From assembly GCF_964019845.1 (NCBI RefSeq), contig NZ_OZ026465.1:62001-126000 (forward strand): a stretch of 64,000 nucleotides of DNA, written 5' to 3'. This DNA is from Spiroplasma endosymbiont of Labia minor. Lineage in GTDB: Bacteria > Bacillota_I > Bacilli_A > Mycoplasmatales > Mycoplasmataceae. The notes below the pieces were generated by a model that saw only the letters and a list, made by a program, of their open reading frames with translations, was not told where the DNA came from and did not search any database. The translations under genes were made by a program, and so were the position numbers. Shown one piece after another: positions 11,095-64,000 of the stretch (positions are counted from its first letter, which is position 1; every line of letters begins with the position of its first letter).

Positions 11095-11159
11095 TTATAT
11101 AATTTAAAAATATCTATTATAGTTAATTTCATTTAAAAAATAAAAAACGTAATTAAATA

Positions 11160-11196
11160 GTGTGAACCCCATAAGTGGGACACATAAAAAAGTCAA
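11160..11196. mobile_element. solitary IS3-type terminal remnant
   Basis: The stretch GTGTGAACCCCATAAGTGGG and its continuation through AAAAAAGTCA aligns closely with the left end of the IS3-family element at about 56401 (GGTGAACCCTGAAAATGG through AAAAAGTCA). No transposase reading frame is attached; an unrelated phosphatase gene follows. It is probably a leftover end of a lost insertion. Confidence 0.55.
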
Positions 11197-11226
11197 AAAA
11201 CATATCTAGGAATAGATATGTTTTTT
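11195..11226. terminator. terminator of the NTDP phosphatase gene
   Basis: AAAAAACATATCTA pairs with TAGATATGTTTTTT around a GGAA loop; T6 runs occur on both strands. It contains the stop codon of the minus-strand gene and may also stop readthrough from tRNA-Thr. Confidence 0.85.
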
Positions 11227-11745
11227 GTTGTTAAATTCAAATCATATATTTTCGAGATTGATATGATCAAAAAAATCTTTTCTCTTTTTAATTAATTTTT
11301 TCAATGTGTCAACTTCATTTCATATAATGTCTATCATTGTATGTGGATAACTTCATTCAATTCTGTTTCTGTTAAAATCTTTCAAATCTAAAATTTTATA
11401 TGACCCGTCATTAAAAACTTTTACATCCAAATCATAATCTATATATTTTAATGTTTCATCTTCAATAATATATGGTGAAGCAATATTACAATAATAGTTG
11501 ATTCCGTAGTCCTTAAACATACATATAACATTAAATCAATTTTTTTTGTAAAAAATTCAAACAGCTGGTTCGTTTGCTTTTCATTTTCTACCATTAACTT
11601 CAGTTACAGTTACGTTGTCATTGATTACGACTAAATAATCATCTGTTTCTTTAAAAACAATAGCAGAATTTCAAATTCTATATAATTGGCCATTATGTTT
11701 GTATGCATGAATTAAAATTTTTTTATAAGGCGCAAGATTTGACAT
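11206..11745 (-). CDS. nucleoside tri-/diphosphate phosphatase (DUF402, Ntdp family)
   Basis: A 179-aa cytosolic protein of the DUF402 family (Bacillus YgaC / staphylococcal Ntdp type), which hydrolyses NTPs and NDPs with divalent metal. The family pattern is visible: HAYKHNGQLYRIWNSA near the start, EPAVWIFYKKNWFNVICMF in the middle, then YCNIASPYIIEDETLKYIDYDLDVKV with the acidic metal-binding positions, and DLKDFNRNRIEW. Many Trp residues are encoded by TGA. An AGGGGGG run lies 5 bases before the start ATG. It is convergent with the tRNA-Thr transcript. Confidence 0.87.
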
Positions 11746-23977: not shown

Positions 23978-26900
23978 ATGAAATTTAAATATCTTTTTAA
24001 GCAGGCAATTGGAAATGCAATAAAAAATAAAGGTCTTTACATACTAGTTTTTGTTTTTTCGATAATTTGTTCGCTATTGATTAATGCTATTTTAACTTTT
24101 TCATTAAATTCATCAAATTTTATTAGCAAATTTCATCAACCAAATCATCAGATTGGATTGCGACCTGGAGTTAAAATTATGGCAGAAGACCAAGAAAATC
24201 TACCAAGTAATAATAATTTTGTAAAAATTAGTAGAGACAATTTTGATTTAATGAAACAAGATGTGTCTTCTTTGTTTGATTATAATTTAGTTGACATAGA
24301 TGATAATTTTGTAAATGATTGGTCATCTAATTATTTTTTTGTAAACAAATTAAATTTAAATAAAATTAATAATAAACAAAAATTCATAAATGGTATTGAA
24401 ATTTTAAAAAATGACTACAAAAACTATTTTCTTTTTTATTGATTAGATAAACACTATTCCGCAATGTATCAAAATTTAGTTAATCAATTTACTTTTAATT
24501 ATTTTTATTTAGATAAAAATATACTAATGGAAGATGGCAAAACTTCTTTAAGATTATTTTTAAATCCTGTAACAAAAAGAGATTATCTAACTTTAGACAG
24601 GGATTTAGAACAACCACTAATTTTTGAACATGATAAAACATAATATAATGGAAATTTACCAAAATTATGAATTACGCCATCATTTGTTAGAAATTATAAA
24701 ATTTCAATTGGACAACAAATTAATTTATGAATTCAATGACAAAAACGTAATGTAGAATTTCAAATTGTGGGTAATATGACCACTTTGTATTCTTCAAATG
24801 AAGGAATCGGACGATCAAGTATTATTTTTACAAATATGAATGCATTATTAACATTAGATGATGGTTCAACATATAACATTTTTTCATCACCATTTGATTT
24901 ATGTATGTCAAGTAATAAATTAACAAACTCACAAATTTATGAAATATTAATTGCTCATTTAGTCCAATATTTACAATATATCCAGAAAAATTATTTAATA
25001 ATATGGGTAGTTTTATAGATAAGTATAATAATTTAACGTTAATCTGTTCAACTTATAATTTGATTTGTCAAATGATTTGAATTTTGACAGCTATATTATT
25101 TGTAATAATGATGTGATTCATTGTTTTAGAATTAATTAAAATAAATAGGAAGACATTAATTTTTTTAAGATCAAACGGAATATCAAGAGCACAGTTATCT
25201 TTATTATCTGTAATTACTGTTTTAGTGCCCATTTTATTGGTAATTATTCTATCACTAATTTTGGTTGCACCTGTTGGAAATATATTTATGTATGTATTTC
25301 AACAAGTGATGAGTTATCATTTAAATATGTGAGGTAATATTAATTGATGATCTGGTTTAATTTCCTTGGTAATGTTTGTTATTATTGGATTTATCTTTTT
25401 TATCATTAATTTATTTTCTTTGTCACCAAAAAAATTGCAAATTAATTCAATTGAAAGACCAAATAATTTCGAAATCGGTTTAAATAAAATTACAAAAATA
25501 ATATTTAAAAAAACACAACGAATTTAAGGTGAACCCCACTTTTGGGGTTCACCTTAATTTAAAACTGCGATACTTTATATTAATCATAATTTTTTTAAAT
25601 CAATTTCATTGTTTATAATGTCTGCGATAGCATTGACTGTAGTTTTATTTACCACACAATTTAAAATATCTTCAAATACAATTGCCGATAATCCAACAAA
25701 AATAAACGATTACAATTTTCAGTCAACAATAACTACTAATGTTTTGAATAAATCACAACGCTGATATGTTCAAAATGTAGAATATCAAAATATTAGAGAA
25801 AATTCAGAATTTAGTGATTTATTTGATTCGACATATTTTGTAAACGCAGGAACGTTTCCACAATTACAAACTAAACTTACAAACACACTAAGAGAAAATC
25901 TTACCAATTTGAAAAATAAATATATTAGTGGTAATGATATTGCTAATATGGCTATGTTTTATCAAGATTATTTTTTGCAAAATGAATCATTAAATAATAA
26001 TGATAATTTAACTGGAATTGTTTTAACGTATATGAAAAATATTGCAATTAATTATTTAGAATATTTTGATTTAGAGAAATTAAAGAACATTAATATTACT
26101 TTTTATAAAAATTATATTTTACCTGAAAATTCCAATCAAGATGGAATTTCATTTGCAAGTTATACGTCTTATGTAATGTTTGAAAATGGCAATATCTCTA
26201 GATTTCAATTAAATGGTTATGATGATGTTAATCCAACAAAATTAAAATTACCTGAAACAAAATATGAAAATGCATTTTATCTATATAAAGATAAAAATAA
26301 TGAAATTGAAAAAATATTAAATGTAGATGTTTCGTATTTGTGGTGAAAAATAAATCCCAATTTAAGAGTAGGCGCAATTTTAGATTTAGTGAAGTCAGAT
26401 ATTTTTTCTGATGTACCAAGTAATTTTAATTTGAAATTTAGAGTTAATTCTATAAATAAAGAGAATTTGACAATAATTGAAGCTTACACAAATAAAAAAG
26501 CCATATTTGAATTAATTCATGATAATGGATATTTAGATGAAGATATTTACAAAACAATGATTGATTTGAATTTTTTGAATGTAAATAATACACTTCAATT
26601 TGATAATGAAAATGTTAAATATGTGAATAATTTTGCAATAGGATCAAAATATAATGATGGATTCATATTTGAAAATTGAATAAGTCAAAGTGGACAAAAC
26701 GGTAATTTTTCATTTATAAATTTTGCAATGTAAGGAGAAATTGCAAAATCAATGTTATCAACATTTATTGTATTAACAGAAAGAATAAATGTAGTTTTAC
26801 TTATTATTATGACCATTGTATTTTTAATTGCCATAGAATTAGTGTTGTTACAAAATAAAGCAATTATTCATATGTTAAAAACACTGGGCTACAAAATGCA

Positions 26901-56356: not shown

Positions 56357-56455
56357 TATTTTGATTGTTTAAATATTTTTACAAAAACACATCTTATTGT
56401 AAGGTGAACCCTGAAAATGGTACTGAATAAAAAGTCACATACCTAGTTACAAAAA

Positions 56456-57208
56456 TTATAATCTAATTTCTCAATTTTGCAATGGGAAATTAGATTTTTT
56501 TCTATATTTATTGTAATGATTACATCAATCAACAACATCGAAAATATATTCATGTAACGAATTATACTTGTTGTTATGAATTGTTCCGCATTTTAAACGT
56601 GAATGTCAACTCTCTATGATAATATTGTCATAGCAAGCAAAATTTGAACCCATTGATTGTTTCATGTTGTTCGATTGAATTTCAGTTTTAAATACGTTTG
56701 AATTATATGTTTGCGCGTGATCTGACAGAATTATCGTTTCTGTTAGATCTTTTTTTATTTGTCTAATTTTCTTAATTGTGTCTTTTAAGTTTTCCATTAC
56801 TAAATTCAAATCATTTTTATAACTTATTTTAAAATCAATAATTTCTTTTGTGAAACAGTCCATCATTGTCGATATGTAAGCTTTTTGACCATTTCAAATC
56901 AAATAGCTTACATCAGTTGTAATAACAGACAAAGGTTCTGTAATTTTATTTCACTGTCTTTTGATTAAATCAGGTATTATGCATTCTTTTGTGATTGTAC
57001 TTTTATACATACCTTTATTTTTTTGTTTTTTAACATAATTTGGTGTCATTGAATATTTTTTCATTAGCCGATGTACTTTTTTATGGTTCATCGGAAGTTC
57101 CGTTTCTTTTGTAAATTTAGTCAATAATCGATAACCAAATTCTTTTCGGTGTTTTACTCATAAATTATAAAGTCAATAACCATCTTTTAAATCTTTATCT
57201 TGATCTAT
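56456..57208 (-). CDS. IS3-family transposase OrfB (integrase domain)
   Basis: About 250 codons, entered from orfA by -1 frameshift. The HTH_21-like part (LYNLWVKHRKEFGYRLLTK and the MNHKKVHRLMKKY block) is followed by a DDE integrase core: first Asp in VITTDVSYL, second in ILSDHAQTYNS, Glu in NIIIESWHSRLK. The catalytic triad is intact. Trp codons are TGA throughout, so the element is adapted to this genetic code. Confidence 0.88.
56460..56501. terminator. hairpin near the left end of the IS
   Basis: AATCTAATTTC (56460-56470) pairs with GAAATTAGATT (56486-56496) followed by T5 on the plus strand; it may terminate the alcohol dehydrogenase transcript. Confidence 0.65.
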
Positions 57209-57570
57209 TTTTTTGTTTTGTCTGTAATATGTAGTTTTTGTAACATTAAGTTCTCGTAATAAGTTTTTAATTCTTCATTTTGTTCTATTTTCTCTAATAA
57301 ATTTTGTGCGTTCTTGCGTTCTTGCTTCAAGAACTCTGTGAACTTTTTTTGAATTTCATATCTCTCTTCAAAATCACTTTCAGATGAGATTCGACCTCTC
57401 TTCAAATTTAATTTACCTGCCTTAAAATTACGTATTCATGAATTTATAGTATTTCTATTTATACCATATTTTTTCGATATAAAAACTACACCAAATTTGG
57501 TGCATTCTTTAATAATTTTTAATCTTATTTCTGAGTCGTATTTTTTAAATGTTTGTCCTAAGGTTGCCAT
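57205..57570 (-). CDS. IS3-family OrfA (helix-turn-helix)
   Basis: A 121-aa DNA-binding protein. The HTH is in residues 12-50 (SEIRLKIIKECTKFGVVFIS, then KKYGINRNTINSWIRNF), followed by a leucine-zipper-like helix. RBS AAGGAGG before the ATG. At its end the A7 run (57214-57208) gives the slippery heptamer A-AAA-AAA in the correct phase, just before TAG, for programmed -1 frameshifting into orfB. Confidence 0.9.
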
Positions 57571-57600: not shown

Positions 57601-57626
57601 AAAAAAACGCCTATTTTAGGCGTTTT
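57601..57626 (-). terminator. terminator of the virion-like operon
   Basis: AAAACGCCTA pairs with TAGGCGTTTT around TTT; the minus strand reads into T7. It overlaps the last codons and stop of the lipoprotein gene. Confidence 0.9.
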
Positions 57627-58032
57627 CATTATAGTAAATCGTAAAGTTAACTGTAGCCATTATACCGTAGTCATCTGCATTTACTTTAAAATTTGAATTA
57701 ATGTCTTTTAAATAACGATATTCTGTGATATCTGTTTTTCTAACATTTTCTTTATCTTCTCAATTTGAATAAATATAAAAAGGCTTTTCATTTTCAAAAC
57801 ATCAGCTACCAATTTGATTTATCGATGTGCTAACACAATCACCAGAAATAAAAATATCAAATTTATCTTTTATATAATCTATAAATGCCATATCTCAACT
57901 ACCTTGAATTGAATGAACAGTTACCTCTGATGGCAAATCTCTAAAATTTTCCGGTTTTCCACACGAAACAACAGAACTTGCAAGATTTATTGAAAATAGT
58001 AATGATGTTGTTAAACCTAATAATTTTTTCAT
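57616..58032 (-). CDS. small lipoprotein, last gene of the virion-like operon
   Basis: 138 aa with a lipoprotein signal (MKKLLGLTTSLLFSINLASS then VVSCGK; Cys about residue 24). The mature part is short, acidic and Trp/Tyr-rich with no recognised domain. RBS GGAGA. It lies 19 bases after the 721-aa gene, so it belongs to the same transcript. The signal peptide closely resembles that of the lipoprotein at 51805, which suggests a host-type surface protein recruited to, or adjacent to, the operon. Confidence 0.85.
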
Positions 58033-58051
58033 ATTTTTTTCTCCAATTATA

Positions 58052-60217
58052 TTAAAAGTTTAACATAAACTGACCATTTGTATCGTTGGTTTCATCTCCT
58101 ATTTTTAAATTAAATTCAATATTACTTAATTGCATTTCAAAACTTATCTTTCATTCTCCTACTAAATTTAAACCTGTAAATAACAATTCTGCTAAATTAA
58201 ATAATTTATTTTCTTCAATATCAAAAACAAATCTTCCTTCAAGTGAAATATCATTTATTCTTAAATAATCTATATTTCCATTCCCATATTGGTTCAATAA
58301 ATATTCATTTGAAAATCTAGTTTTAAAAACATTATATTTTGAATATTCTCCATTGGACAATTTTACCTCTCCTGGAATTGTAGATGGAATTGCTGACGTT
58401 TCAATTTGATTATCAATTTCAGGAAACGCCATTATATTTGAAGCTAAAATATATTTTTTTGAAACTGAAATAGAGCTAACATTATCAAATTCAAAATTGG
58501 TCTCACTAAAATTACCATAACTAGAAATCAATTTGACTGTTAATGTTGCATAAGGTATTGTAGGAATTTCATTTGGATCTTTTATATCAGGAGTATTTGT
58601 CAATTCCAAGCCAAATGGGAGAATTAATTTGGAATCATCTGATTTTCCCTGATTATAGGAATAGTTAGAAATGATATGATTTGATAATGCTGAAATTACT
58701 CATTTACCTCGTTTTAAAATATTTCTATTCTCTGCTGTTTTTAATAATTCAGGGTGTGTATTAACTCATAAATCAAAACGATTAGAAATTGCAGTGACAA
58801 CATCACCAGCTTTAACTGCTTCATCACGTAATTTATAAATATCTATATTTTTTATTATTTCCTGATTAGTATTTTTATCTAAATCTATTGCACCTCTGAA
58901 ATTATTTTTAGCGTGATAACTGAAATTTAGCATATCAATAATCAATTGATAAAATTCTGTCTTGTCAAACAAAACTCCTCTCGTGTAAGTAATATTAATA
59001 GGGTTTTTTACAACAAAATTGTCGGCTGTATGTGTGACAATACTGTTTGCGGGTCAACCAGTTGGAATATCTACACCAACAGATTTATTTTCAAATCCAT
59101 TTACTTCACCAGGTTTAACAGAAATATTAAATTTGGAAGATGAATTATTATCAGTTGTTAGTTTAAAATCTGTTAATAATGCATCCTTACTTTCGGGTCT
59201 TGTTGGACTACCATTTGGAAATGTTCTTGATGAATAATCATATTTAACTGCCATTTCATTTATTGTTAGTTCTGTAATACCAGAAATTGTTATTCCATCT
59301 TTTCCTCCCTCAATTACATCTCCCAATTCTAAAAATTTACCTAATGAGAACTCTTCATTATACTTAACGTTTTGGCTGTCTAAATAATCAAATATTTCTT
59401 TAAAACCAACAATTTGATTTGAATTTCAAAAATCTAATAATTCAACGGTTGGCGATGTTTGATACGGAAACATTTGTCTAACAAATAAAAAAGTATTTTT
59501 ATCAGGAAATAATGGAGGTCTTGCTCCGTTTTGCTCTAAAGCTTTAATTGATGTTAAAAAAGTTCCATCAGGCGATTTGACTGTAATAGCTTTAATTTTT
59601 TGTTTTGTCATATCAGGATTTGCATTTAATATTTTTAAAGGATGCACACGTGCTTGTTGTGCTCAGTCATCGATGTTTATAGCTTCAAATGAATATCTTA
59701 AAATAGACAAATGTAGATTTTGAGGTGGTGTCATTGTTAAAATTATAAATTTATCTACGTCATCAAAATTATCGTTAGTTAATTTTTGATTGAATGTATA
59801 AAAATATAAGTTTTCCTCGTCTAAAAAATCAACTACTTTTTCTGGTGCGCCACTAACTACTGTATTGTCAGAGCAATATTGAAATGTATACGATTGCGGT
59901 GCAACACTTTTAAAAATACTATTTTGAGTTTGCTGTGTATCATAAATTTGGGTTAAATTAATTATTCCTAATTCATTATTATTTACTGCATCAATTTCAA
60001 CATAATCATCAATATCTGTAACAACTAGTGTTGTTCTGTTTAACGCCACTTTAATAAGATTATGTTTATTCAAATTTCTGCCACTAAAGCTATTTATTTT
60101 ATATAAGTATAATTTGTAATAAACACTAGCAGTACTATATAAATCAACTAATTCTTGTTGATTATCAGAAACACCATAAACTTCATCAAATAATTCATCA
60201 CTATAATTATTTATCAT
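58052..60217 (-). CDS. 721-aa protein of unknown function, virion-like operon
   Basis: A single frame with internal TGA codons as Trp. It has no signal peptide or membrane segment. The N-terminal 160 residues start MINNYSDELFDEVYGVSDNQ and alternate strands and polar loops (VYYKLYLYKI; VVTDIDDYVEID); the middle has VHPLKILNANPDM and KAITVKSPDGTFLTSIKALE; the C-terminal third is strand-rich (NIEFNLKIGDETNDTNGQ). Such a large beta-rich soluble protein after a portal-like gene could be a virion structural protein, but I recognise no family. Its start overlaps the upstream gene by 11 bases. Confidence 0.7.
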
Positions 60218-61478
60218 TTTTACTATCCTCTTTTTCTATTTTATTTTCAACTGGCTCAAATTCAACTCATATTTCACTTTTAAAATTAGTATTTAAATAT
60301 GAATTTGATAGATTAATATATTTAGTAAATACTTCTGTCAAAAAACGTTCATAAATTAATTTCTTATGTTCATTTTTTGGTGTTGATAAAAACTGTCTTG
60401 CAAAAATTTCAGCTTCTGTTTGTTGTGCAGATTTGATAGAGTCATCGTCTGCCGGAATTCCTAATGATTGATAAATTGAACGCAATAGTTCAATTTTTGT
60501 GGCCTGAATTGTACTCATTAATGATGCTGGCTGTAGATATCTGATTAATTGTTCTAAAGCAAAATCAAATTCAGATCCATTCGATTGAATACTTACAATT
60601 TTATTGCTATAAGTATTTGTAAAATCAATTGTTTTTTGGTTAGGCGTAATGGCATTTACTTTTGTATTAGCTAGCGTACCAGTTTCTCAAAAAGGTAAAG
60701 TATTCATTGATGCATAATAATTTGTAACTTGCTGTAATCTCTCTTCGACGTTTACAAAAATAGATTTGTTTAAGTAATTCTGACGTCGAATAACCACAAT
60801 TGGTATTTCCTCTAATGTGGAATTAAATTCCAATATTTCTTCTATCTTTTCAATTCCTAAATTTTTAAAAGTATCATCATCGCTAAAATATTGTTCATTC
60901 TTTTTATCAATAAAGAAATTTGCAATATAACATAAATTATTTTTTATTCAAACAGATCACGTTAAAGAGAAAACAGTTCCATTAGTATTAACAAATTCTG
61001 AATTATCTTGCAGTGTAACTCTAGTTAATTTTCCATTAACGAATGTTGAGTCAATTATTTGACAGGTAAGTCATTCAATTTTTGAATTCAAGGGAAATAA
61101 AAGTAATGCCATTTGGCCATAAATGCATGAACCTAAATTTAGCAAATAATTTTTTTCATTAAAATGTTGCTCGTTACGAACTTTAAATAGCTCTTCTAAC
61201 GTTTTTTGCTCAGCAATTATGTTAATTGGTGTTGAATCGTATAAACAAGAAAATCATTCAGCAATATCATTTTTTAATTCTAATTCATATTTATAAGCTT
61301 CTTTTGGTTTGTAATTTAAAAAATCAATTTGATTTGATTGAATATTTTGCTTGAATTCTCTTTCTTGTTTTAATTCATTTTGCTTTTTAATCATTTTAAC
61401 TGATTGTTCTTGCATGGAATTAAAAATTTCTTCTTTGCCAATTTGCAAATCACTTTTAAGTTGTGCTTCTCTTGTCAT
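60207..61478 (-). CDS. portal-like protein (tentative), virion-like operon
   Basis: 423 aa, continuous with TGA as Trp. The N-terminal 70 residues are a Lys/Glu/Gln coiled coil. The central part (NYLLNLGSCIYGQMALLLFP, then a strand run to VNGKLTRVTLQDN) has the 'helix-G-strand-strand' order of phage portal proteins, and the C-terminal part (LEQLIRYLQPASL, then SLGIPADDDSIKSAQQTEAEIF and a long helix) resembles the portal stem/crown region with its 'GIP...S.A...' turn. This is fold-level resemblance only. RBS AAAGGAAA. A hairpin with T5 separates it from the upstream gene. Confidence 0.55.
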
Positions 61479-61497
61479 TTTTATTTCCTTTCAATTC

Positions 61498-61521
61498 AAA
61501 AAGCGACATCAAAGTCGCTAA
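61498..61521 (-). terminator. intra-operon hairpin
   Basis: AGCGAC (61502-61507) pairs with GTCGCT (61514-61519); on the minus strand it ends in T5. It lies between the coiled-coil membrane gene and the portal-like gene and may reduce or process the transcript there. Confidence 0.65.
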
Positions 61522-61534
61522 AAATTTACTAATA

Positions 61535-61957
61535 TTAATAAGTTTTTTGCAATTTACGCAATTCTTCAGAAGTCTTATAATCATAATTTAGATCATACTC
61601 ATCTTTATTTAATTGTTTACGTTCATTTTTAATTCTTAGTTTTTCTGCTTTTCTTTCTTGACGTGTGATTTCTTTTGAAACACCCAAGCTTTGTTGCATT
61701 TTTAAATTATTTGTTCGTTCTTTTTTAGATAAATCTGTTTTTGCAGTATGTATGTACAATGCAATTCAAATTAAAAGACCCAAACCTAAACCTACACCTA
61801 AAGCAATAGCGAATTGAATTCCAGTATTGCTGATTAATGAATTAACATTTTTGATATTAAAAAACAGAATTACGAACATTATTGCAAATGAAATTAGAAA
61901 TGAAATAACGGGCATTACTATCAATTTAAATTTATGATTTTTGTGAACAGTTAACAT
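61535..61957 (-). CDS. membrane protein with C-terminal coiled coil, virion-like operon
   Basis: 140 aa. Two membrane segments (LIVMPVISFLISFAIMFVIL; FAIALGVGLGLGLLIWIAL) are followed by an 80-residue Lys/Glu-rich helix that would lie in the cytosol. The RBS GGAGG sits inside the end of the preceding gene, and its ATG shares a base with that gene's TAA. Holin, membrane-bound assembly factor or membrane-virion protein are possible; nothing decides. Confidence 0.75.
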
Positions 61958-62226
61958 TATGTGTCACCTCCCTTCTCATCTTTTTGTTCAAATGAATGTT
62001 TAATTTTTAATTTGCCTTTATAAGTACCTAGTTCAAATTTGCGTTTAATAAACATAATTAATCAGGCAATAAATATAATTAATGCAATGATAGATACAAC
62101 AGTTACAGCTAGCAATCACTTTCAATTTTCCTGTAGTCAATGGAATTTTTCAATGATTTCGCCAATACCACCAAGCATTCCGCCACTTAATGTAGTAAAA
62201 GTAACTGCCTTAATTATTTTCCTCAT
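61957..62226 (-). CDS. small membrane protein, virion-like operon
   Basis: 89 aa with a Gly-rich N-terminus (TLSGGMLGGIGEIIEKF), one strong membrane helix (LLAVTVVSIIALIIFIAWLI) and a basic cytosolic tail. RBS GGAGG. It overlaps the end of the 539-aa gene by 17 bases and shares a base with the next start, so translation is tightly coupled. Not recognised; small size and topology would allow a holin-like or scaffold role. Confidence 0.75.
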
Positions 62227-63829
62227 TATTTTTACCTCCAAATTTTGAGACATTACTTTTTAGATGAGGAAACTCATTATAAAAATAATTTTCAAATTGT
62301 CTTAACTGTTTTAGCTCATTTTGCATATCTTTTATTTCAGAGTTATTTTTTGAGCTATTGATTTTAAATTCTAAATTTAATATTGCCTGTCTAAGATCTT
62401 CTTTTGATTTTAAATCTGAATATAATTTTGATTTTGGTGTATGAGTTATAAAATTATGTAATTTTTCTAATTTTATTTTGCTTTCATTATTTCAAGGCAC
62501 AAAATCTATTTCCCTTAATTTTCAAACAGAATTAGTTACAACAAGGTCTTTAATACCATCTGTTTTAGATTTTAAATTTAACATTGCGATACTTACTTCT
62601 CCCCCTCTTTCATATTGATATTCGAAATAAAATCATGCTGATTCTTTAGCATTTGAGATTGAAAAATAATCTGTCGTTAATGAAATATTTCCGTCTCCAA
62701 TTTGTAATGCTGGTAAAATAGACTTCATATTCTTGTAAATAAAATTATTCATAGCAGGTACAGCAAATATTTCAAATTCAACAATTAAATGACATACTTT
62801 TCCATCACCCGATTGTGAGACGAAAATTGGTATAGCGGTGTTTGCATTCAAATCTCAACTAATTTTATTTGTGCCAACAAAAATATCTTTAATATAATAT
62901 TTTCCCTCAATAAAAACAGGTGTATTTTCATAATAAATTTCATTCGGTATTAGCGTTGAAGAAATTGACATCATATTTTTTTCTTCGTTTAAATTAAAGC
63001 TCTTAAATTTATCATTCAATTTTTTTGTGATGTTATATGATGGAGCTTGTTGTTGATGCGGTTCAGTAACAGTAGTTGCAAAATCGTCTATTACTAAAGC
63101 ATCAGTAACAGCTGATGCAGAAATGTTGTGATCAATATTTACAGAACCATCATCGTTGTTTATCACTGTTGTTGATACTAAATCTCCATGAATATTTAGA
63201 TTTGAAATTATTTTTTTGATAGATTCAGTTTCGGTTGTGATTAATTGAGACGTATCCGCTTTTTTATTATCCAAATTTTCTAACTCTAAATTTATAGACA
63301 TATTTAGCATAGATATTATTTGGTCAACTTCATTTTTTGTATAAAATTTAGCTAAATCTAAAATTGGTATTTCATCGCCACCATCTTGCTTTCATTTGAA
63401 ATAGATAAAATCAATTCCACTCGTTTTTCAAGCATCGATAGCTTTTGCAGATAAGAAATCTAAAGAAGATATTGCAAAAAAATTAGTTGTCGCATCTGTT
63501 CTACCACCTGTAGTAGTTGTCATTGATGAAACTGTTTGTGACTCTACTGTTTGACCATTGTAAAGCAAACCATCTATTGCATAATAGGTAAATCGCTTCA
63601 AATACTCAACAGTATTGTCGCTAAAACCACTAATATCAAAATTTTTATTAATAAAACCTTCCAGTCTCATATTTAAAATATCTTGTAATTGCAAAGCTTG
63701 AGTTTCAAAATAATCTTTCAAATTTGAAAATCTGTTAGTTAATTTTTTTGGCAATACTTTATTACCACTGGCAGAACGTCAATTGTTAAATCAATCATTG
63801 TATGATGTATTCGATCATAATTTTTGCAT
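62210..63829 (-). CDS. 539-aa tail-fibre-like protein, virion-like operon
   Basis: The frame starts at ATG 63829 (weak RBS AAGGA about 20 bases upstream). Residues about 125-150 read KFYTKNEVDQIISMLNMSIN followed by NKKADTSQL, a pattern very common at the start of trimeric phage tail-fibre and baseplate proteins ('YTKxEVDxLI ... KAD'). An acidic, Thr/Ser/Val-rich beta segment follows, then about 100 residues of C-terminal coiled coil (KEDLRQAILNLEFKINSSKN region). No signal peptide. This is the strongest virus-like signature in the operon, but still short. Confidence 0.65.
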
Positions 63830-63835
63830 ATTAAG

Positions 63836-64000
63836 TTATCACGTCCTTACTCTTTTTCTCATTCTACTTTGCGATTTAGATTTTATTAAATTTAGAAAAT
63901 TACCGGTTGTCAAAGTATCGTCCATTAAATTTTGAAAATAACTTGAAGCAACAATTGAACCAAATAAAGTTTTTGATAATAAAATTGAAAACTGATGTTT
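63836..64000 (-). CDS. C-terminal part of an upstream gene, virion-like operon
   Basis: Fifty-four codons in frame to TAA 63836-63838, continuing beyond the window. The visible end is helical and very basic (KSKSQSRMRKRVRTW). It ends 7 bases before the start of the 539-aa gene, so it belongs to the same operon. No family assignment is possible. Confidence 0.7.

Follow-up and report, generated by a model that had tools for sequence, protein, structure and literature searches.

A tailed-phage prophage very probably integrated by an IS3-type transposase in a Spiroplasma endosymbiont of Labia minor

We examined a prophage in the genome of the Spiroplasma endosymbiont of Labia minor (G000, a single contig of 984,411 bases), part of which lies in a 64,000-nucleotide stretch, bases 62001-126000, referred to here as the window. 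Judging from its sequence, this 17,362-bp temperate tailed-phage genome very probably constitutes one transposon-like chromosomal unit that was integrated by an insertion sequence (IS) transposase, the IS3-type OrfAB. The phage family to which it belongs, found in spiroplasma-type bacteria, has so far been little described. The original prediction had described a minus-strand operon of virion-like proteins at the end of the window, and this was essentially right, as the operon is half of a tailed-phage prophage with an HK97-fold capsid and a large terminase. Genes were read with genetic code 4. Positions above 64000 are window-coordinates, i.e., genome position minus 62000 (which equals L002 position plus 59000).

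Ends, transposase and target site of the prophage

The unit extends from 56400 to 73761. Its left end is a 38-bp inverted repeat of the IS3 type on the plus strand (TAAGGTGAACCCTGAAAATGGTACTGAATAAAAAGTCA, 56400-56437), and its right end (73724-73761), located past the first phage gene, is identical to the left repeat at 28 of 38 positions. The trinucleotide TTG is duplicated at the borders (left copy 56397-56399; right copy 73762-73764, outside the window), and host DNA at the left border makes up one arm and the loop of a terminator hairpin. When the flanks are joined with a single TTG they read AAAAACACATCT-TATTG-AGATGTGTTTTT, which rebuilds a perfect hairpin, the terminator that follows the upstream dehydrogenase gene (-13.3 kcal/mol, z -5.4). 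The phage thus occupies the loop of that host terminator. An inverted repeat beginning at ACACATCT was dropped as a candidate end because those bases make up both arms of the same hairpin.

The transposase is encoded on the minus strand just inside the left end. OrfA (57205-57570) is a 121-aa helix-turn-helix protein (HTH_Tnp_1, 4.8e-4, below the curated cut-off) that shares 40% identity with the N-terminal part of the transposase of a related prophage in genome G027. OrfB (56456-57394, the limits of the open frame rather than a start codon) matches Pfam rve at 5e-10 and has an intact DD(35)E catalytic triad, as counted by eye. The two frames overlap, and at the stop of OrfA an A AAA AAA slip site indicates that OrfB is reached by a -1 frameshift. 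There is no second end just 5' of OrfA; the inverted partner lies 17 kb away, at 73761. The earlier statement that no integrase was in view was consequently misleading: the adjoining transposase (56456-57570), which had been left out, is the likely integration enzyme, and the unit ends at 56400. No tyrosine or serine recombinase was recognized among the genes of the unit, nor was an int/exiS integration module.

The operon continues past 64000, as had been anticipated, and the sequence beyond contains genes for a capsid (65559-66659) and a terminase (67247-68992). Six of the 13 members of the terminase family match PHROG 2 (phrog_2, terminase large subunit; best E 1.1e-10). The 581-aa G000 terminase itself has no phrog_2 match and was assigned by full-length family alignment (27-32% identical), in which the Walker A motif and acidic residues are invariant. 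A structure model of the 366-aa capsid candidate retrieved HK97-fold capsids and encapsulins as its top Foldseek matches (E 6.7e-7 in PDB, 7.8e-8 in BFVD).

Several other repeats in G000 resemble the prophage ends. A perfect palindrome, TAAGGTGAACCCCAAAAGTGGGGTTCACCTTA, which is terminator-like or like a miniature inverted-repeat transposable element and contains an IS3-type end motif, is present at five places, window 25527-25556 and genome positions 61234, 238188, 605151 and 724962; it was set aside as a separate repeat. Solo right-end repeats (TAGTGTGAACCCC..AAAAAAGTC plus a hairpin) followed by unrelated sequence occur at window 11158-11240, directly after tRNA-Thr, and at genome positions 246774 and 254487; these may be relics or elements moved in trans. 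Two tandem right ends at genome positions 628881-629000 (L047) are followed by a decayed prophage leader and first gene, a relic of a further prophage of the same type. The relic of an ISLre2-type relative, at 612288-613101, consists of a C-terminal terminase fragment followed by a fragment of a UPF0236-type (ISLre2-type) gene.

Related prophages and their integration modules

Of 60 genomes of the family, 15 had a match to the terminase. Nine besides G000 are closer relatives (G008, G011, G019, G021, G022, G027, G031, G040 and G042, of which G019 is Spiroplasma phoeniceum P40 and G021 is S. poulsonii MSRO), and the remainder form a more distant branch. The terminase profile matched 50 of 320 genomes of the order, the weakest being short Walker-motif matches that may be due to chance. 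Prophages in G027, G031, G040, G008 and G011 have a common gene order: RuvC-like, SSB-like (single-stranded DNA-binding), capsid, 532-aa protein, 539-aa protein, membrane proteins, portal-like protein, 721-aa protein, lipoprotein, terminase and transposase.

Four of these prophages were mapped, and in every case the bounding repeats are cognate to the last gene of that prophage. One, in G027, is of the IS3 type with a 3-bp duplication (14,917 bp, inverted repeat 23/24 identical, GTA duplicated), and three are of the ISLre2/UPF0236 type with duplications of 8-9 bp (G031, TTGCATTTA; G008, CAACAGAAC; G011, AACATTTA). The chance of finding equal words at the borders is 0.03 for G000, 0.03 for G027, 6e-5 for G031, 4e-5 for G008 and 1.7e-4 for G011. 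The last gene of the G031, G008 and G011 prophages encodes a UPF0236 transposase (Pfam E 1.9e-19 for G031); those of G008 and G011 have no Pfam match of their own and are 39-40% identical to that of G031. An automatic end search in G040, G031, G011 and G008 gave nothing above shuffles, and the ends of G031, G011 and G008, which read G[AG]G[TC]AA[GA]TT, were located by copy comparison and the shared motif. The site occupied in G011 is unoccupied and contiguous in three congeners without an element there (G012, G010 and G006). The G027 site is likewise unoccupied in most of its genus, but the junction alignments are gapped; therefore, at single-base resolution only the unoccupied site of G011 is persuasive. 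In G040 and G042 the ends are of a third type, read by eye as about ACTGAGTTTAAAAAAGTAATCAT.

In the distant branch, found in other spiroplasma-type genomes, a UPF0236 gene lies divergent from the terminase gene (E 6.9e-13 in one member, no match in another). G315 has two near-identical tandem prophages of this branch, 17,585 bp apart (L109, L110), whose GGGAGCGT ends are five bases apart; the intervening AAAGT separates them as in a circle junction. On 55-135-kb plasmids of S. citri (e.g., NZ_CP047429.1:58479-59990) there are also relatives of the terminase that are filed as hypothetical proteins; these plasmids may be phage-plasmids or carry inserted prophages.

An exact TATAAT lies outward of the ISLre2-type elements in 4 of 4 insertions, at offsets of 39, 39, 39 and 38 (G031, G008, the head side of G011, and the tail end of a further G011 copy, which is rearranged); TATAAT at such an offset on either side has a probability of 0.005 per random site. 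The promoter is on the head side of the insertion in G011 and on the tail side in the other ISLre2-type prophages. TnGBS and ISLre2 elements favor sites upstream of sigma-A promoters (PMC3942029), and the prophage insertions agree with this preference. The offsets were noticed before they were tested, and the agreement is therefore a strong lead rather than a blind test. Both IS3-type insertions are at the 3' ends of genes, one of them inside a terminator (n = 2).

The terminase of the ISLre2-type G031 prophage is 71-72% identical to those of the IS3-type prophages in G042 and G040, its capsid is 70% identical to that of G040, and the three group together in the terminase tree with support of 0.99 (the broken G040 gene was entered as two joined pieces). 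Since such close relatives have transposases of different superfamilies, the integration module has been exchanged.

Alternative explanations

Several observations weigh against the reading of the G000 unit as a tailed phage integrated by OrfAB. Its inverted repeat is imperfect (28/38), a 3-bp duplication is weak when taken alone (the chance of an equal triplet being 0.03), and the capsid model is only partial, with a predicted local distance difference test score (pLDDT) of 56. Gene order in G000 also deviates from that of its relatives, as the terminase gene precedes the capsid gene, and the transposase comes after the lipoprotein gene and a terminator. Finally, G040 has ends of a different type, with no clear duplication at its borders. 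Prophages are often flanked by IS elements, and solo ends of like kind occur elsewhere in G000; the phage could therefore have been integrated by some other enzyme, with an unrelated IS3 element landing beside one end by chance. However, the transposase gene has no end of its own on the 5' side and the partner end is across the prophage, neither a tyrosine nor a serine recombinase was recognized in the unit, and five prophages at different sites and in different hosts each have cognate ends plus a duplication. We consider such a coincidence very unlikely. Another version of events, in which the unit arrived by transposition but is now a dead relic, is also unlikely in our view, yet it carries some weight. 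The G000 ends are imperfect and similar relics are present at 612-613 kb and 628.9 kb of the genome, but the large genes are all intact frames, and the catalytic triad, terminase motifs and frameshift site have been kept.

The original prediction had also entertained a domesticated particle or secretion device, for which no support was found. Together with a gene-transfer agent, this would fit the failure to recognize any lysis, polymerase or helicase gene in the unit, although an endolysin is unneeded in wall-less hosts. The distribution among genomes is sporadic, and the complete mobile unit, with ends, a duplication and unoccupied sites in relatives, makes domestication highly improbable. 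We give hardly any credence to a Mu-like transposable phage of known type. The unit does combine a DDE transposase with phage genes and has a short duplication at its borders, but the enzyme is an IS3-type OrfA/OrfB with DD(35)E, the duplication is 3 bp, the length is 17 kb, no MuB-like ATPase was recognized in the unit, and relatives carry UPF0236-type transposases instead.

Gene content, known systems and proposed life cycle

The late operon was confirmed as a minus-strand gene train under code 4 that runs on beyond 64000, and its frames are real genes, since other genomes keep counterparts of them in matching order. Its genes had been described as coupled by overlaps of 1-17 bases. We found overlaps of 44 (17 with a likelier ATG), 1 and 11 bases, but also gaps of 35 and 19 bases, and therefore the coupling is tight without being overlapping everywhere. 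The clean terminator reported at the end of the operon held up: an intrinsic terminator at 57601-57630 on the minus strand (-13.3 kcal/mol, z -5.6) separates the lipoprotein gene from the transposase. All of the following genes are on the minus strand. The 138-aa lipoprotein (57616-58032; lipobox SVVSC, read from sequence) follows the 721-aa gene, as it does in relatives. The 721-aa virion-type protein (58052-60217) belongs to a family shared with HtpT of the mollicute phage MAV1. The 430-aa protein (60207-61499; 423 aa from an internal ATG) belongs to a family shared with MAV1 HtpN and is probably the portal; this reading, already proposed, is plausible from the HtpN match and gene order, but its fold model reached a pLDDT of 39 and it has no PDB, Pfam or PHROG match. 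Two membrane proteins of 140 aa (61535-61957) and 98 aa (61957-62253; likelier ATG at 62226) precede it. The 539-aa protein (62210-63829) is possibly a fiber or receptor-binding protein; a fiber-like identity would fit its conserved N-terminus and variable C-terminus. The gene for a conserved 532-aa protein (63836-65434), which is hydrophobic over a stretch close to the N-terminus, falls within the window only with its 3' end (63836-64000).

Next to the capsid gene is a 100-aa gene (66659-66961). Beyond the terminase gene come genes for a 183-aa putative SSB-like protein, suggested by comparison with relatives, and a 180-aa putative RuvC-like protein, suggested by its IDPSGMGTSGI start, followed by 309-aa and 84-aa genes, a D12-type adenine methyltransferase (279 aa, Pfam 2.1e-24) and small early genes up to 73670. 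Opposite-strand genes past the prophage (cation ATPase, secA, uvrB, uvrA) were read as host. Scanned one sequence at a time against Pfam and PHROG, the window proteins had no meaningful match, PDB profile searches gave no relevant match, IMG/VR scans with the capsid, terminase and 721-aa queries found no relative, and in tblastn searches no phage record was matched by the 430-aa protein or the terminase.

Profiles of three families matched MAV1: terminase to MarRP (57 bits), 430-aa protein to HtpN (39 bits) and 721-aa protein to HtpT (35 bits), far exceeding shuffled and reversed decoys (10-11 bits); the capsid, 532-aa and 539-aa profiles had no match there. The three genes are consecutive in MAV1 (L118, 2900-8075), and MarRP, for which the record gives nothing beyond this name, is therefore most likely the MAV1 terminase. 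All three MAV1 proteins could be re-annotated from these matches. The suggestion of a mollicute prophage from an undescribed lineage is borne out as to the prophage, with capsid, terminase, RuvC-like and SSB-like genes upstream, but the lineage is not wholly undescribed because of these three shared families. MAV1 (of the MAV1/MFV1/MHoV-1 group) is likewise a temperate mollicute phage, of about 16 kb; however, it has its own int ("similar to the phage family of integrases"), exiS and attP, whereas the prophages described here carry IS-type transposases.

The G000 unit shares with IS3-family elements the OrfA/OrfB arrangement and slip site, an rve domain with DD(35)E, inverted ends and a 3-bp duplication, but those elements enclose only their transposase and not a 17-kb phage genome. 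Spiroplasma plectroviruses have an IS30-type transposase, and BcepMu a Tn552-type enzyme. DDE transposases replace integrases in the conjugative elements TnGBS and the mycoplasma integrative and conjugative elements (MICE) (PMC3942029, PMC7466169), and likewise in Mu-like phages (PMC8705779). ISLre2/TnGBS (p-MULT 3; PMC3942029) resembles only the G031, G008 and G011 elements, in its UPF0236-type transposase, 8-9-bp duplications and promoter-upstream insertion, but TnGBS has conjugation genes where these have phage genes. MICE (PMC7466169) are also mollicute elements with a 3'-end DDE transposase gene and inverted repeats, but they are conjugative, 22-37 kb long and have a p-MULT 5 transposase. 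Mu-like phages (PMC8705779) likewise rely on a DDE transposase for insertion and make a short target duplication, but have a MuA/MuB pair, 5/6-bp duplications and genomes of 36-39 kb, as opposed to an IS3-type enzyme, 3 bp and 17 kb. For Wolbachia phage WO, surrounding IS elements have been suggested to move the phage (PMC9203015). No tailed prophage enclosed by the cognate ends of an IS3 or ISLre2 transposase turned up in the open literature searched, most subscription journals falling outside this coverage.

If OrfAB integrated the G000 prophage as proposed, the transposase, encoded by the last genes, would recognize both inverted ends, cut the target with a 3-bp stagger and insert the whole phage, a step supported by the two ends, the duplicated TTG and the reconstituted target. 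Going by IS3-family elements, a circle with abutted ends would be expected from excision or copy-out, and this circle may serve for gene expression, replication and packaging by the terminase. Particle assembly would draw on the HK97-fold capsid protein and the terminase, for both of which there is support, and on the probable portal and presumably the other late proteins. Release from the wall-less cell would need no endolysin, and the lipoprotein may act in superinfection, by analogy with MAV1 Vir (PMC7466169). We tentatively raise a broader possibility, more doubtful than not, that a small tailed-phage clade replicates by copy-out/paste-in, in which the transposition circle is the expressed and packaged genome, the donor copy stays in place, and the modules (IS3, ISLre2, tyrosine integrase) are interchangeable.

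Transposase-driven tailed phages have mainly been known as Mu-like phages. Here, a single phage family appears to use ordinary IS transposases from two unrelated superfamilies as its integration module, and exchange of that module can be seen between close relatives. With its precisely placed ends, its unoccupied sites and the promoter-upstream rule, the case is open to direct testing. MAV1, whose morphology is unknown, is tied to a wide clade of phages in spiroplasma-type bacteria, and proteins filed as hypothetical gain capsid and terminase identities.

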